The notes below the pieces were generated by a model. The model saw only the letters and a program-made list of their open reading frames with translations, did not search any database and had not been told where the DNA came from. Positions 8,092 through 26,129 of a stretch of 64,000 bases of DNA are shown here, one piece after another. The number at the start of each line of letters is the position of its first letter. The first letter of the stretch is position 1. The DNA comes from Euzebya pacifica (GTDB taxonomy: Bacteria > Actinomycetota > Nitriliruptoria > Euzebyales > Euzebyaceae). The stretch lies in the NCBI RefSeq assembly GCF_003344865.1, contig NZ_CP031165.1:2919910-2983909 (forward strand), given 5' to 3'. Position numbers and translations under genes: made by a program.

Positions 8092-8325
8092 TCAGGCCTG
8101 CTGGTCGGCCCAGTTGATGCCGGCCCAGTTGATGCCGGCCCAGCTGTCGCCGGCCCAGTTGATGCCGGCCCAGCTGTCGCCGGCCCAGTTGATGCCGGCC
8201 CAGTTGATGCCGGCCCAGTTGATGCCGGCCCAGTTGATGCCGGCCCAGTTGATGCCGGCCCAGTTGATGCCGGCCCAGTTGGGTCCGGCGGCGGACGAGG
8301 TGGTGGTGGCGGTGGTGGTGGTCAT
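8092..8325 (-). CDS. NWAGI-repeat small peptide
   Basis: A 77-residue protein with a Thr/Ser/Ala-rich start (MTTTTATTTSSAAGP) followed by twelve consecutive five-residue units: NWAGI six times, NWAGD, SWAGI, NWAGD, SWAGI, NWAGI, NWADQ, then QA. It has no Cys, no Lys and no Arg. A good Shine-Dalgarno (AAAGAGG, about nine bases upstream on the minus strand) supports translation. It lies about 100 bases downstream of another minus-strand small gene with its own strong ribosome site. Family unknown. As recalled knowledge, short W-A/S-G repeats occur as C-terminal tails of some actinobacterial subtilases; here the repeat stands alone. It might be a secreted or modified peptide precursor or a structural repeat, but no maturation enzyme or signal peptide is visible. 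Confidence 0.72.
   Translation of the reverse strand: MTTTTATTTSSAAGPNWAGINWAGINWAGINWAGINWAGINWAGINWAGDSWAGINWAGDSWAGINWAGINWADQQA
8101..8280 (-). repeat. 12 x 15-bp tandem repeat coding NWAGI units
   Basis: Twelve uninterrupted 15-bp units (plus-strand consensus ATGCCGGCCCAGTTG), with variants CTGTCGCCGGCC at the two Asp/Ser junctions. The period is a multiple of three, so copy-number change would keep the minus-strand peptide in frame. The adjacent near-identical units suggest recent expansion by slippage or recombination. Confidence 0.95.
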
Positions 8326-8427
8326 GTCGAAATACCTCTTTCGTGAGCTGTGGAGTGCGTGAGTTCGTGCGTGCCCGGCAGGGCTGGGGCGGTGTGCCCC
8401 AAGAGGGGTGTTCGCTCGATTGGGGGG

Positions 8428-8583
8428 TCAGCGCCCGGGCAGGGCGAAGCCGAGACCCGTCGTCAGGATCTGGCGCCAGCGCGGTCGCTTGGCCTTCGTT
8501 GCGTGGACCGGCAACATGGGTCCGCGGGGACCGAGTCGTTCGGGTCGTCCCCCGACGACCCGCTCGTCGATGATCACGGCCAT
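8428..8583 (-). CDS. Small basic protein of unknown function (51 aa)
   Basis: ATG 8583 is preceded on the minus strand by GAGAGGAGCACGAAA, a strong Shine-Dalgarno at good spacing, which is the main evidence that this short frame is a gene. The product begins MAVIIDERVVGG, is rich in Arg and Pro in the middle and ends LTTGLGFALPGR. It has no signal peptide or recognisable domain. It reads in the same direction as the NWAGI peptide gene that begins about 100 bases downstream, so the two probably share a transcript. It may be a leader or partner for that peptide; no function is assigned. Confidence 0.6.
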   Translation of the reverse strand: MAVIIDERVVGGRPERLGPRGPMLPVHATKAKRPRWRQILTTGLGFALPGR

Positions 8584-8877
8584 TTTCGTGCTCCTCTCAG
8601 GTGGATTTTCCAGCAATGTGTTAAGACCCGTTCGGCGCGTGCCGAGAGCAAGAGCGCACAATCGAAACCCAGGAGGACCCTCCTCCCTTGTCCCGTCATG
8701 CGGGGTCATCCCCGTCGTCATCTGTCAGGTGCAGTGCCCTTCCCGGCTGTGCCTCCGACGACGTACTCGGTTGTAACCCTGGACTCCCGTCGGCTGGCGC
8801 AGCCGATCACGACGAACGCGGCGGACCCGCGCGACGATGGTTCCAACGGACTATTCGCGTCGCTACGCGGGGTGGAC
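8584..8877. other. Divergent intergenic region between small-gene pair and GGDEF/EAL gene
   Basis: About 290 bases that separate the two small minus-strand genes from the plus-strand signalling gene. It is less GC-rich than the neighbouring genes, for example around 8581-8670 with ATTTTC, AATGTG and TTAAGA. It holds an AGGAGGA/TCCTCCT inverted element near 8670-8690. An open frame continues through it to 8350 on the plus strand but encodes no domain. It presumably contains both promoters; I cannot define -10/-35 boxes with confidence. Confidence 0.5.
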
Positions 8878-11394
8878 ATGGCTAGCCATATCAAGAGCAG
8901 CCCGGCTGGTCCCGCGTCACTCCTTGGCGTGCTCGCTGGACTACTCTGGGTGATTGCACCGCCTGCGTTCGGCCCGAGCCCCGGGTCGATGGTCACGGCC
9001 GGTGTGGTCCTCGCCATCGCCTTCGTTGCGGTGGAGATGTGGCCGCTCACCCTGGAGATCCGTGGCGACACGCTGAACCTGACGCTCAGTGGTGTCGTCG
9101 TGATCGTGGGACTATTTTTCACCGGACCGCTGGTAACGCTGGTTGCAAGGATGCTCGGCGCCGGGTTGTCGCTGGCCTTCAGATGGCACAACGCACCTCT
9201 CAAGCTCGCGGTCAACCTGACGGCCATGGCGGTGGAGGTCTGGGCGACCGCAGCGGTGCTGGCGTTGGTGCTGCCCGAGGGGAGGGTCACCGACGTCGTC
9301 CAGTGGTTGGGTGTCCTGCTCGCGGGCGTTGCCGGGGAGCTCGGCATGGGCTTCGTCGTGCTGGCGGCCATGCGCATGATGGTCGGGACGGTCCAGGTCG
9401 ACACGCTCCGAGCGCTGGGCACCGGCCTCGTCGCCTCCACCCTCATGGTGTGGGTCTTCACCGTCCTGACCCTCGCGCTGGTCGAGGTGGACCCGTGGCT
9501 GCTCGGCATCGTCGTTGCGGCGATGGGGTTGCTCGTGCACTCCAACCGCCAACGAAACGACCTCAACCTCCGCTACCAGTCCCTCCGCGGGCTGTACCGC
9601 TTCATGACCCGGGTCGACGAGGCCGAGGACACCACGGCCATGGCCAGCCGGATCCTCGACGAAGCCGCTGAGGTGGTCGGGAGCACACGTGCGGCCCTGT
9701 ATGTCGTCGACGACAGCCGCACGACCAGGTTGTCCAACGCCCGGGGCTCCCTCGGGGTCACGTGGGTGCCGCGCGAGCAGGTCGAGGCGCTCGCGGCGGA
9801 CGTGGGAACGACCGCACGCCTCGTCGACCGCAGCTGGGTGCAGGAGGACTACCTCGACCTGCTGGACCACGACGAGCAGACCATCGTGGCGTCGCTGGGC
9901 AATCCCGACGTGACCGGACTCTTGGTGCTCAGCGGTCGGCCGCGCCACCTGCCGGAGTTCGACGTGCAGGACGTCGAGCTCGCGGCTGCTGTCGCCCATC
10001 ACGCCGGTGCGTCCCTCGCGGAGGCGCGGCTGCTCGATCGACTGCGTGAGGAGCGGTACCGGGTCGAGCAGATGGGCCTGACCGACACGCTGACCGGGCT
10101 TCGCAACCGCGACGGCCTGATGCGGGACGTGCCGCGGATGGACGCGGGCGCCGTCATCGTCCTCGGACTGCGGGACCTGGTCGAGATCAACGGGGCGCTG
10201 GGTCACGAAGTCGGCGAACGGATGGTCCTCGCGGCCGCCCAGCGCCTGCGCCGCATGGCCGACCAGCACGCGATGATCGCGGCGGCGTTCGGCGGTGGCC
10301 GGTTCGCCCTTGTCGCGCCCGACGTGACGAGCGTCCTGGCCGGCAGCGACCTGTGCCGGCAGCTGCTGCAGGAGGTCTCGGGACCGATGGAGGACGGGCC
10401 GCTGGCGCTCGACATCAGCCCGGTGCTGGGGATCGCGCTCGCGCCATCCCACGGACGCGATCCGGCCGAGCTCGTCCGGGCCGCCGACAAGGCGCTCGGC
10501 CAGGCGCTCGACAGCGGCATGGGCGTCGCCTGGTTCGACGCCGACTACGACCGCGAGAGCACCGAACGCCTGCACCTGGCGGGAGAACTCCGCCGGGCGC
10601 TCGACCAGGGGCACCTGACCGTCGCGTACCAGCCCAAGGTCGAGCTCGCCAGCGGCAGGGTCGTGGGAGTCGAGGCGTTGGCACGCTGGCCACACGCCGA
10701 GCGCGGCATGATCCCCCCGACCGAGTTCATCGACGTGGCCGAGCGGACCGGCCTGATCCGGCCGCTCACCCTGGCGATCACCCAGCAGGCGCTGGCGCAG
10801 GCCGACGCATGGCGTCGGCAGGGGCTCGACCTCTCGATGTCCATCAACCTGTCGATCGCGGTGATGCAGGACGCATCGATGGCCCGACAGATCGTTGCCC
10901 TCGTCCGGTCCCACGAGACCCCACCCGAACGGATCATCGTCGAGATCACCGAGTCCCAGGTGATGGAGGACGTCGAGCGGGGCAGCGGGATGCTGGCGAT
11001 CTTCGGGGCGGCCGGGGTGTCGCTGTCCGTCGACGACTTCGGGACCGGGTACTCCTCGTTGTCGCAGGTCAAGAACCTGCCGGTGCAGGAGCTCAAGGTC
11101 GACCGGTCCTTCGTCATGGACATGGCGAGCAACCGCACGGACCAGGTGATCGTCACCTCCGTCCTCCGGCTCGCCGAGGAGCTCGGGCTGCGGGTGGTCG
11201 CGGAGGGCATCGAGGACGAGACCGTCCGCCGGATGCTGGAGGACCTCGGATGCGAGCAGGCCCAGGGCTACCTCTTCGCCAAGCCGCTCCCCGCGTCCCA
11301 GATCCCCGCTGCGGTCAAGGATATCGAAGCCCGGCCACGGCCGGATGCAGCGGCCCCGTTGCCCCTGCGACGTCGCTTCGACGGGCTCGGCTGA
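8878..11394 (+). CDS. Membrane GAF-GGDEF-EAL protein, probable c-di-GMP phosphodiesterase
   Basis: About 838 residues from ATG 8878, where a hydrophobic N-terminus begins; the frame is open further upstream without domain content. Order: seven or so hydrophobic helices (to about residue 220), a GAF-like sensor region, a GGDEF-like domain (LTDTLTGLRNRDGL) whose signature is changed to GGGRF, and a C-terminal EAL domain. The EAL domain keeps its key residues: VEALARW, INLS, EITESQ, VDDFGTGYSSL, LKVDRSF, AEGIE and QGYLF. The protein therefore most likely hydrolyses c-di-GMP, with the GGDEF part degenerate and possibly GTP-binding or regulatory. It lies divergent from the NWAGI peptide genes and upstream of an acyl-CoA dehydrogenase. 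Confidence 0.92.
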   Translation: MASHIKSSPAGPASLLGVLAGLLWVIAPPAFGPSPGSMVTAGVVLAIAFVAVEMWPLTLEIRGDTLNLTLSGVVVIVGLFFTGPLVTLVARMLGAGLSLAFRWHNAPLKLAVNLTAMAVEVWATAAVLALVLPEGRVTDVVQWLGVLLAGVAGELGMGFVVLAAMRMMVGTVQVDTLRALGTGLVASTLMVWVFTVLTLALVEVDPWLLGIVVAAMGLLVHSNRQRNDLNLRYQSLRGLYRFMTRVDEAEDTTAMASRILDEAAEVVGSTRAALYVVDDSRTTRLSNARGSLGVTWVPREQVEALAADVGTTARLVDRSWVQEDYLDLLDHDEQTIVASLGNPDVTGLLVLSGRPRHLPEFDVQDVELAAAVAHHAGASLAEARLLDRLREERYRVEQMGLTDTLTGLRNRDGLMRDVPRMDAGAVIVLGLRDLVEINGALGHEVGERMVLAAAQRLRRMADQHAMIAAAFGGGRFALVAPDVTSVLAGSDLCRQLLQEVSGPMEDGPLALDISPVLGIALAPSHGRDPAELVRAADKALGQALDSGMGVAWFDADYDRESTERLHLAGELRRALDQGHLTVAYQPKVELASGRVVGVEALARWPHAERGMIPPTEFIDVAERTGLIRPLTLAITQQALAQADAWRRQGLDLSMSINLSIAVMQDASMARQIVALVRSHETPPERIIVEITESQVMEDVERGSGMLAIFGAAGVSLSVDDFGTGYSSLSQVKNLPVQELKVDRSFVMDMASNRTDQVIVTSVLRLAEELGLRVVAEGIEDETVRRMLEDLGCEQAQGYLFAKPLPASQIPAAVKDIEARPRPDAAAPLPLRRRFDGLG

Positions 11395-25322: not shown

Positions 25323-26060
25323 GTGCCGCTCCTGAGCATCATCACGCCGACGCAGTCCCACAACGCCGATCACATCGAGGCCGTCTGGGAGGGGCTGGTC
25401 GTCCAGGACATGCCCGACGGCTGGGAGTGGGAGTGGCTGGTCCAGGAGGACGGCCGCGACCCGGCCGTCCGGGATCGGCTGCCCGACGACCCGCGGGTCT
25501 GCTACGACGCCCTCGGAGTGCAGGTGGGCAGCGCCGCCACCCGCAACCACGCCCTCGCCCGGGCCGGGGGCGACGTGGTCGCCGGGGTCGACCACGACGA
25601 CTTCCACCTTCCGGGCGCCTTGTCGGCCCTGCTCGGCCCGCTGATCGAGCGCGCCGACATCGGGTGGTCCTGCGGCCCCTGTCGGCTGGAAATGGCCGAC
25701 GGCGGCACGTGGACCAAGCCCTCCGTGTTCGCCGCAGGTCGCGTGCCTGCCCGAGCCGTCACCGATCACTTCCTGGCCCACGACGACTTTCCGTTCCCCG
25801 CGGCCTTCACCGCGTTCCGGCGGGTGCCGCTCGTCGCCCACGGCGGCTGGCCGGCCGTCGCCCGATCCACCGACGCGGTGCTGCTGGCGGACTTCGGCGA
25901 CCGGTACGACGGATGGTGGGTCGAGGACGTCGTTGCTGTCTACCGGCGCTGGGACGCCCAGAAGACCGTGCAACCCGCCGACATCGCGATCCGCGATCTG
26001 CCGCACGTGCGAGGCATCATCCGCCAGCGGCGAGTAGCGCGGGACGCGCTCGGGGGGTAG
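25323..26060 (+). CDS. GT2-like glycosyltransferase
   Basis: 245 residues from GTG 25323, which follows the response regulator stop after one base. The N-terminus has the GT-A opening strand LLSIITPTQSH. A metal-binding DxD-like site occurs in VVAGVDHDDFHLPGAL, after the nucleotide-binding RNHALARAGGDV. A CGPC motif follows. Sugar donor and acceptor are unknown. Tight spacing suggests co-transcription with the two-component genes, possibly for envelope glycan synthesis. The C-terminal RDALGG and stop codon lie in the first unit of a 25-bp tandem repeat. Confidence 0.82.
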   Translation: MPLLSIITPTQSHNADHIEAVWEGLVVQDMPDGWEWEWLVQEDGRDPAVRDRLPDDPRVCYDALGVQVGSAATRNHALARAGGDVVAGVDHDDFHLPGALSALLGPLIERADIGWSCGPCRLEMADGGTWTKPSVFAAGRVPARAVTDHFLAHDDFPFPAAFTAFRRVPLVAHGGWPAVARSTDAVLLADFGDRYDGWWVEDVVAVYRRWDAQKTVQPADIAIRDLPHVRGIIRQRRVARDALGG

Positions 26061-26111
26061 GGCGCGGGACGCGCTCGGGGGGTAGGGCGCGGGACGCGCT
26101 CGGGGAGTGGG
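26037..26111. repeat. Three 25-bp tandem repeats between convergent genes
   Basis: Units at 26037-26061, 26062-26086 and 26087-26111; the first two are identical and the third differs by about two bases near its end. Each begins GCGCGGGACGCGC, a small inverted repeat (GCGCG/CGCGC around GGA). The array covers the stop codon of the glycosyltransferase and ends 18 bases before the stop of the convergent TetR gene, so it may serve as a bidirectional terminator. Confidence 0.9.
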
Positions 26112-26129
26112 GCGCGGCGCGCGTCCCGG

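Follow-up and report, generated by a model that had tools for sequence, protein, structure and literature searches.

The window analyzed here (a 64-kb stretch, G000:C1:2919910-2983909, within one contig of a 6.37-Mb genome) carries two small minus-strand genes, encoding a 51-residue basic protein (b) and a 77-residue tryptophan-repeat peptide (a). We propose that they constitute a two-small-protein operon serving as the dedicated partner of the divergently encoded enzyme, a MASE9-like sensor-GAF-dead GGDEF-EAL protein and probable phosphodiesterase, and give this proposal an even chance of being correct. Physical contact within the system, the direction of signaling, the role of (b) and the effect on c-di-GMP are the parts of it that we infer.

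Gene (b) lies at 8428..8583 (-) behind the Shine-Dalgarno sequence AGAGGAG (8591..8597 (-), ~7 nt ahead of the ATG), and gene (a) at 8092..8325 (-) behind AGAGG (8335..8339 (-), ~9 nt ahead of the ATG), confirming both the frames and the strong ribosome-binding sites that a preliminary description of this DNA had assigned to two very short minus-strand genes. The gene 3′ of (a) is convergent, and (a) is the last gene of the operon. Peptide (a) consists of a Thr-rich N-terminus, MTTTTATTTSSAAGP, followed by 12 five-residue units of the form (N/S)WAG(I/D), namely NWAGI, NWAGD and SWAGI, with NWADQ as the last. It contains 12 Trp and no Lys, Arg, His or Cys, in agreement with the earlier statement that basic residues and Cys are missing, and it lacks a signal peptide: a hydrophobic stretch was absent from all six (a) peptides of the genus, while the positive controls have one. 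The units are coded by a 15-bp × 12 tandem array (8101..8280 (-)), which TRF delimited at 8106-8281 (11.7 copies, 92% match) as the top-scoring tandem repeat within the 64-kb window. Searches of NCBIfam and PHROGs with window (a) and (b) found no family for either. Pfam matches of (a) to 'Lamprin' (0.0013) and of the G003 peptide to 'Prion_octapep' were under the cut-off and were taken as composition effects.

We checked relatives that keep the flanking genes for absence of the repeat and found the (a)+(b) pair in each of the four genomes examined from the genus, at six loci (the window and five others of like arrangement) which form one clade and thus represent a single evolutionary origin rather than six. 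All six pairs are divergent to a GGDEF-EAL sensor enzyme. The order is (b), (a) in the window and at the first locus of G002, with (a) the last gene at both, and (a), (b) at the second loci of G000 (the window's genome) and G002 and in G001 and G003 (4/6 loci). The N-termini of (a) are unrelated between loci (MTTTT.., MTRKTDG.., MNKLGT.., MEKLGTT..). MTRKTDG opens both second-locus peptides (G000 and G002), with five ASWAG-type units following in one and six ATWAG-type units in the other, and two further (a) peptides, MNKLGTSWGITDGTSWG.. and MEKLGTTPQASPDGWSWTVSSL.., have periods of 8 and 10, respectively. The first locus of G002 encodes VNWAG repeats in an array that the assembly breaks, with at least ~16 units (9 complete units on one contig and 7 on the other). 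The expectation that the 15-bp period permits copy-number variation was thus borne out, with 12 units in the window versus ~16 or more in its closest relative and 5 versus 6 at the second locus. As a side observation, the ends of G002:C7 (L002) and G002:C4 (L044) both carry the VNWAG repeat, and the two contigs are very probably neighbors.

A flanking molybdopterin oxidoreductase-type gene occurs in the window, G001 and G003. Beyond the pair itself, the sensor enzyme was the one gene that we saw at every one of the six loci. This bears on the earlier suggestion that (a) is a RiPP precursor whose repeated cores are post-translationally modified. A short leader followed by repeated units does resemble multi-core precursors, and Trp is a common modification site in RiPPs; nevertheless, no maturation enzyme common to the six loci was seen among the annotated subset of their flanking genes, the 'leader' sequences differ between loci with no conserved leader, and the same repeat also forms long subtilase tails adjoining the same sensors. 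We consider modification of this kind very unlikely. The divergent intergenic region between the operon and the enzyme gene (8584..8877 (.)) had no Rfam match; a search of five stretches that span the module loci yielded no c-di-GMP riboswitch or other Rfam element, and no promoter motif common to the six upstream regions emerged beyond the closest pairs. The multiplicity of Trp codons, together with the position of (a) ahead of (b) at 4/6 loci, could suggest a Trp-rich leader peptide that acts in attenuation rather than as a functional product. This reading, which we regard as scarcely credible, is largely refuted by the order (b) then (a): in the window and at the first locus of G002, (a) is the last gene, and the next gene in the window is convergent, leaving nothing to attenuate; the missing Rfam match also argues against it.

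The open frame of (a) is in itself weak evidence, because other frames through the 15-bp repeat are also open. We therefore compared the repeat units inside one array codon by codon against 20,000 simulations. In the arrays of the two second loci (G000, 9/9; G002, 8/8), every differing codon was synonymous, and none of the 20,000 simulations was as extreme (P<5e-5). The G003 array (7/10 differing codons synonymous, P=0.003) and the array at the first locus of G002 (3/3, P=0.013) gave further deviations, and the window's own array was too homogeneous for the codon test (P=0.08). The synonymous-only divergence of units at paralogous loci argues that the repeat is translated and selected; on this codon evidence, the repeat peptide appears to be under purifying selection of the translation type.

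Conservation of (b) likewise supports translation of the small genes: between the window and G002, (b) is 92% identical, with 10 synonymous and 4 non-synonymous codon changes. The (b) proteins share the N-terminal motif M-x-x-[IM]-x-DE[RS]-[VI]-[AV]-GGRP-x-R, in which M, DE, GGRP and R are invariant, followed by a variable basic tail; they are strongly basic (+5 to +7; +7 in the window) and have amphipathic C-terminal stretches. The 51-residue product had been called unrecognised, which holds insofar as it has no NCBIfam or PHROGs family; it is nonetheless a member of a conserved family found in the window's genus only, and the partner of (a). A scan for the motif in 84,980 genomes, a collection that may omit the window's near relatives, gave one chance match, antisense to a large aminoacyl-tRNA-synthetase-like gene. 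Outside the genus, most of the weak matches fell within frames that were large and unrelated, and inspection of one showed it to be irrelevant; no plasmid match for (b) was found.

The basic charge and amphipathic stretches of (b), and a conserved N-terminus that ends in GG before a variable region, would also suit a pair of secreted bioactive peptides, either a two-component bacteriocin or a signaling pair, with (b) membrane-active and cleaved after GG. Double-glycine leaders are, however, typically longer than the 12-residue N-terminus of (b) and have a usual hydrophobic spacing that it lacks. Moreover, we saw neither an exporter nor an immunity gene recurring across the loci, and the fixed link to one sensor clade is atypical of bacteriocins, such that secretion as a bioactive pair seems distinctly unlikely.

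The enzyme linked to the pair is an 838-residue protein with a membrane sensor, a GAF domain, a degenerate GGDEF domain and an EAL domain (8878..11394 (+)). The small genes had been placed opposite a c-di-GMP signaling gene; they are divergent to it and do not overlap it, as the enzyme starts at the ATG at 8878. Its EAL domain matched PF00563 with E=1.5e-71, the GAF match being weak, and retains the EAL motif (EALARW, 10672..10689 (+)) and DDFGTGY (11032-11052 (+)). In contrast, the GGDEF motif is ruined (FGGGRF, 10288..10305 (+)), and the diguanylate cyclase active-site motif [GSA]G[DE]EF is absent from the window enzyme. The six module-linked enzymes form one clade (100/100 support) in which the motif is broken in every member (GGGRF twice, GPDRF, SPDRF, SMGQF and SSAQF) and the EAL motif is retained, whereas [GSA]GDE[FY] is kept in 30/30 compared relatives. 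Given that the expected activity of an EAL domain is c-di-GMP hydrolysis, the window enzyme is, from its motifs, most likely a c-di-GMP phosphodiesterase, expected to carry out hydrolysis only. The loss of the GGDEF motif is reminiscent of LapD-type degenerate GGDEF-EAL proteins; unlike these, the window enzyme has an intact EAL motif (EALARW, DDFGTGY), and an active phosphodiesterase would be expected rather than a c-di-GMP receptor only.

The N-terminal membrane sensor domain of the enzyme (8878..9615 (+)) is common to S8-linked EAL proteins and histidine kinases. In profile comparisons (hhalign), the module sensors matched the sensors of S8-linked EAL enzymes at 1.3e-29 and those of S8-linked histidine kinases at 2.5e-10, and the two S8-linked groups matched each other at 3.5e-24. 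Against Pfam MASE9 (PF20972), one kinase sensor scored above the cut-off (26.6 bits versus 24.3) and one just below (24.1), and none of the six module sensors (the window and five relatives) had a direct match above the cut-off. We name the module sensor 'MASE9-like' because its link to MASE9 is one of profile comparison, with no direct Pfam match. No paper naming MASE9 was found among the 5.39 million searched.

Relatives of the enzyme, both in the same genomes and in Actinomycetota, adjoin secreted S8 subtilases with C-terminal Trp repeats, whose units include SWSGR, NQWSG, SWHGW, GWDGW, GAGWS and GASWT. From 57 tails in the fetched loci we derived the consensus [A/R/S/N]-[S/R/T/G]-W-[S/D/T/A]-G, which NWAG fits. 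The earlier idea that (a) mimics the W-A/S-G tails of subtilases accordingly gained ground, the tails having the same consensus and the same adjoining sensor domain; taken as a whole, the preliminary description was supported in this likeness, unsupported in its RiPP option, and missed both (b) as a conserved partner and the lost GGDEF motif. Common to the S8 tails and (a) are Trp units of period 5, in which small residues surround the Trp and Gly stands at +2, and the adjoining sensor domain. They differ in that each tail forms part of an exported protease whose gene usually precedes that of the sensor on the same strand, whereas (a) stands alone, without a signal peptide, divergent to the sensor and paired with (b); no S8 domain is present in the window module, although the repeat has the S8-tail consensus. 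The shared consensus and neighbor, and the case of L038 in the window's genome, where an S8 gene and its own sensor are likewise divergent, would fit a relic, in which an S8 protease gene beside the sensor decayed and (a) is what remains of its tail. We hold this to be very improbable: (a) has its own start and Shine-Dalgarno sequence, a conserved partner in (b) and a signature of purifying selection, and the synonymous-only divergence between units already appears to disfavor decay.

The association between tail and sensor was recovered from both sides. Of 30 loci outside the genus that a search with the window's sensor retrieved, 17-18 have a Trp-tailed neighbor, and several of the others lie at contig ends. 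A profile built from the six module sensors only retrieved 20 further loci of the class, 14 of which have an adjoining gene with a Trp-repeat tail and whose outputs are EAL, GGDEF or kinase. Conversely, a search from the repeat side led from Trp-tailed subtilases to adjoining histidine kinases with N-terminal domains partly matching Pfam MASE9. Within the genus, Trp repeats occur at 16/17 loci with a MASE9-like sensor (G000, 8/8; G002, 4/5; G001, 2/2; G003, 2/2) versus 0/20 other GGDEF/EAL loci, with P~1e-9, a value that overstates independence in that orthologous loci are counted once per genome. In these 20 loci from the four genomes, which lack a MASE9-like sensor and were scanned by an identical procedure, neither a period-5 Trp tail nor a neighboring S8 gene was found; an unrelated GWGQP-type repeat occurred in two and a spurious short frame in one. 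The association has exceptions: for some Trp-tailed S8 genes no adjoining sensor was recognised within the sequence that was read, and there are sensors with no repeat neighbor.

Trp-tailed S8 subtilases adjoin MASE9-like histidine kinases at L122, L124, L130, L137, L170, L171, L181 and L182. The literature searched yielded no account of Trp-tailed subtilases adjoining MASE sensors, and the subtilase and MASE9-like kinase pairing, which spans several actinobacterial families, is apparently undescribed. The window's genome also carries three consecutive pairs of a Trp-tailed subtilase and a MASE9-like GGDEF-EAL protein in tandem (L036:971-13149; G000:C1 ~1014-1026 kb), each pair with its own repeat unit (GWGWD, SWNGW and SWHGW). 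Another genome, G123, encodes a stand-alone pentapeptide-repeat protein (L103:5870-6268 (+)) consisting of a signal peptide and (GASLT)x18, in which Leu replaces Trp; its gene immediately precedes a sensor-GGDEF-EAL gene, occupying the usual slot of the Trp-tailed subtilase and giving a further protease-free case.

The likeness of the repeats to pentapeptide-repeat proteins raises a rival of some weight. An AlphaFold single-sequence model of (a), bearing both on a right-handed quadrilateral beta-helix and on the earlier suggestion of a self-assembling peptide, gave no confident fold (mean pLDDT 60.6, pTM 0.16), and window (a) had no Pfam match to the pentapeptide repeat PF00805. In the PDB, (a) weakly matched Qnr (3pss, E=4e-4) and a GASWT tail matched designed and natural Rfr proteins with E down to 3.6e-10, scores that are inflated for repeat sequences by periodic composition. 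The Trp of the GASWT tail falls at the central Leu/Phe position of pentapeptide-repeat beta-solenoids, and the stand-alone G123 peptide is a clear PF00805 member. PF00805/Rfr proteins such as Qnr share with the repeats a five-residue period, and the Trp of the repeats falls at their central residue position; they differ in that window (a) is below every Pfam family cut-off, the central residue is Trp rather than Leu/Phe, and periods of 8 and 10 occur in two species. Since the period is mostly 5 but 8 and 10 in these two species, no single fold fits all repeats, and the period of 8 in one species is at odds with a strict pentapeptide helix.

This resemblance of the tails to beta-solenoids in sequence, the membership of the signal-peptide-bearing G123 peptide in PF00805, and the suitability of low-complexity repeats for a scaffold would fit the reverse direction of control, in which the repeat, as peptide or subtilase tail, is the output, an envelope or surface component whose production or deployment the MASE9-like enzyme or kinase controls. 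Against it, (a) has no signal peptide, and the outputs vary between c-di-GMP enzyme and histidine kinase with a constant sensor domain, pointing to the sensor as the shared partner. We judge the reverse direction unlikely, yet it remains a serious rival.

With a constant sensor, a constant repeat and swapped outputs, the most economical reading is that the partner of the repeat is the sensor, although a neighborhood with the sensor does not prove binding. In the proposed partnership, the Trp repeat would bind the MASE9-like sensor and thereby set phosphodiesterase activity, and the amphipathic, basic (b) would assist, perhaps by holding peptide (a) at the membrane. In many lineages the repeat is carried at the C-terminal end of an exported protease; one sensor clade of the window's genus has a free repeat peptide together with (b) instead, and its enzymes appear to act only as phosphodiesterases. 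The missing signal peptide of (a) is the main difficulty for this sensor-partner reading: the S8 proteins, like the G123 peptide, appear to be exported, and (a) and the S8 tails may be on different sides of the membrane, such that (a) would act from the cytoplasmic side or be exported by an unrecognised route. A precedent for a small protein that is encoded beside a membrane sensor and sets its output is DbfQ, a small periplasmic protein encoded beside DbfS that binds the DbfS sensor domain (PMC12714742); DbfQ differs in being exported with a signal peptide and in targeting a kinase, and we claim no sequence relation.

More tentatively, and with somewhat less than an even chance, Trp-pentad repeats may represent a phylum-wide class of encoded ligands for MASE9-type sensors, normally occurring as tails of secreted subtilases and, in the window's genus, as a stand-alone peptide with a helper protein, and controlling c-di-GMP breakdown or kinase output. 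The constant repeat neighbor provides a concrete candidate partner for the MASE9-type domain; the stand-alone (a) is small enough for synthesis and direct testing against a reconstituted sensor enzyme. The same reading offers a hypothesis of function for a widespread and apparently undescribed class of Trp-tailed subtilases, and (b) adds a small protein family apparently confined to one genus.

Two other kinds of repeat were observed. GWGQP-type repeats of 10-11 residues, unrelated to the period-5 Trp repeats, are encoded near GGDEF loci in two species (L142:4922-5758 and L150:3480-4298). The window itself also contains a 25-bp tandem repeat at 26037-26117 (3.2 copies, 96% match; GCGCGGGACGCGCTCGGGGGGTAGG).
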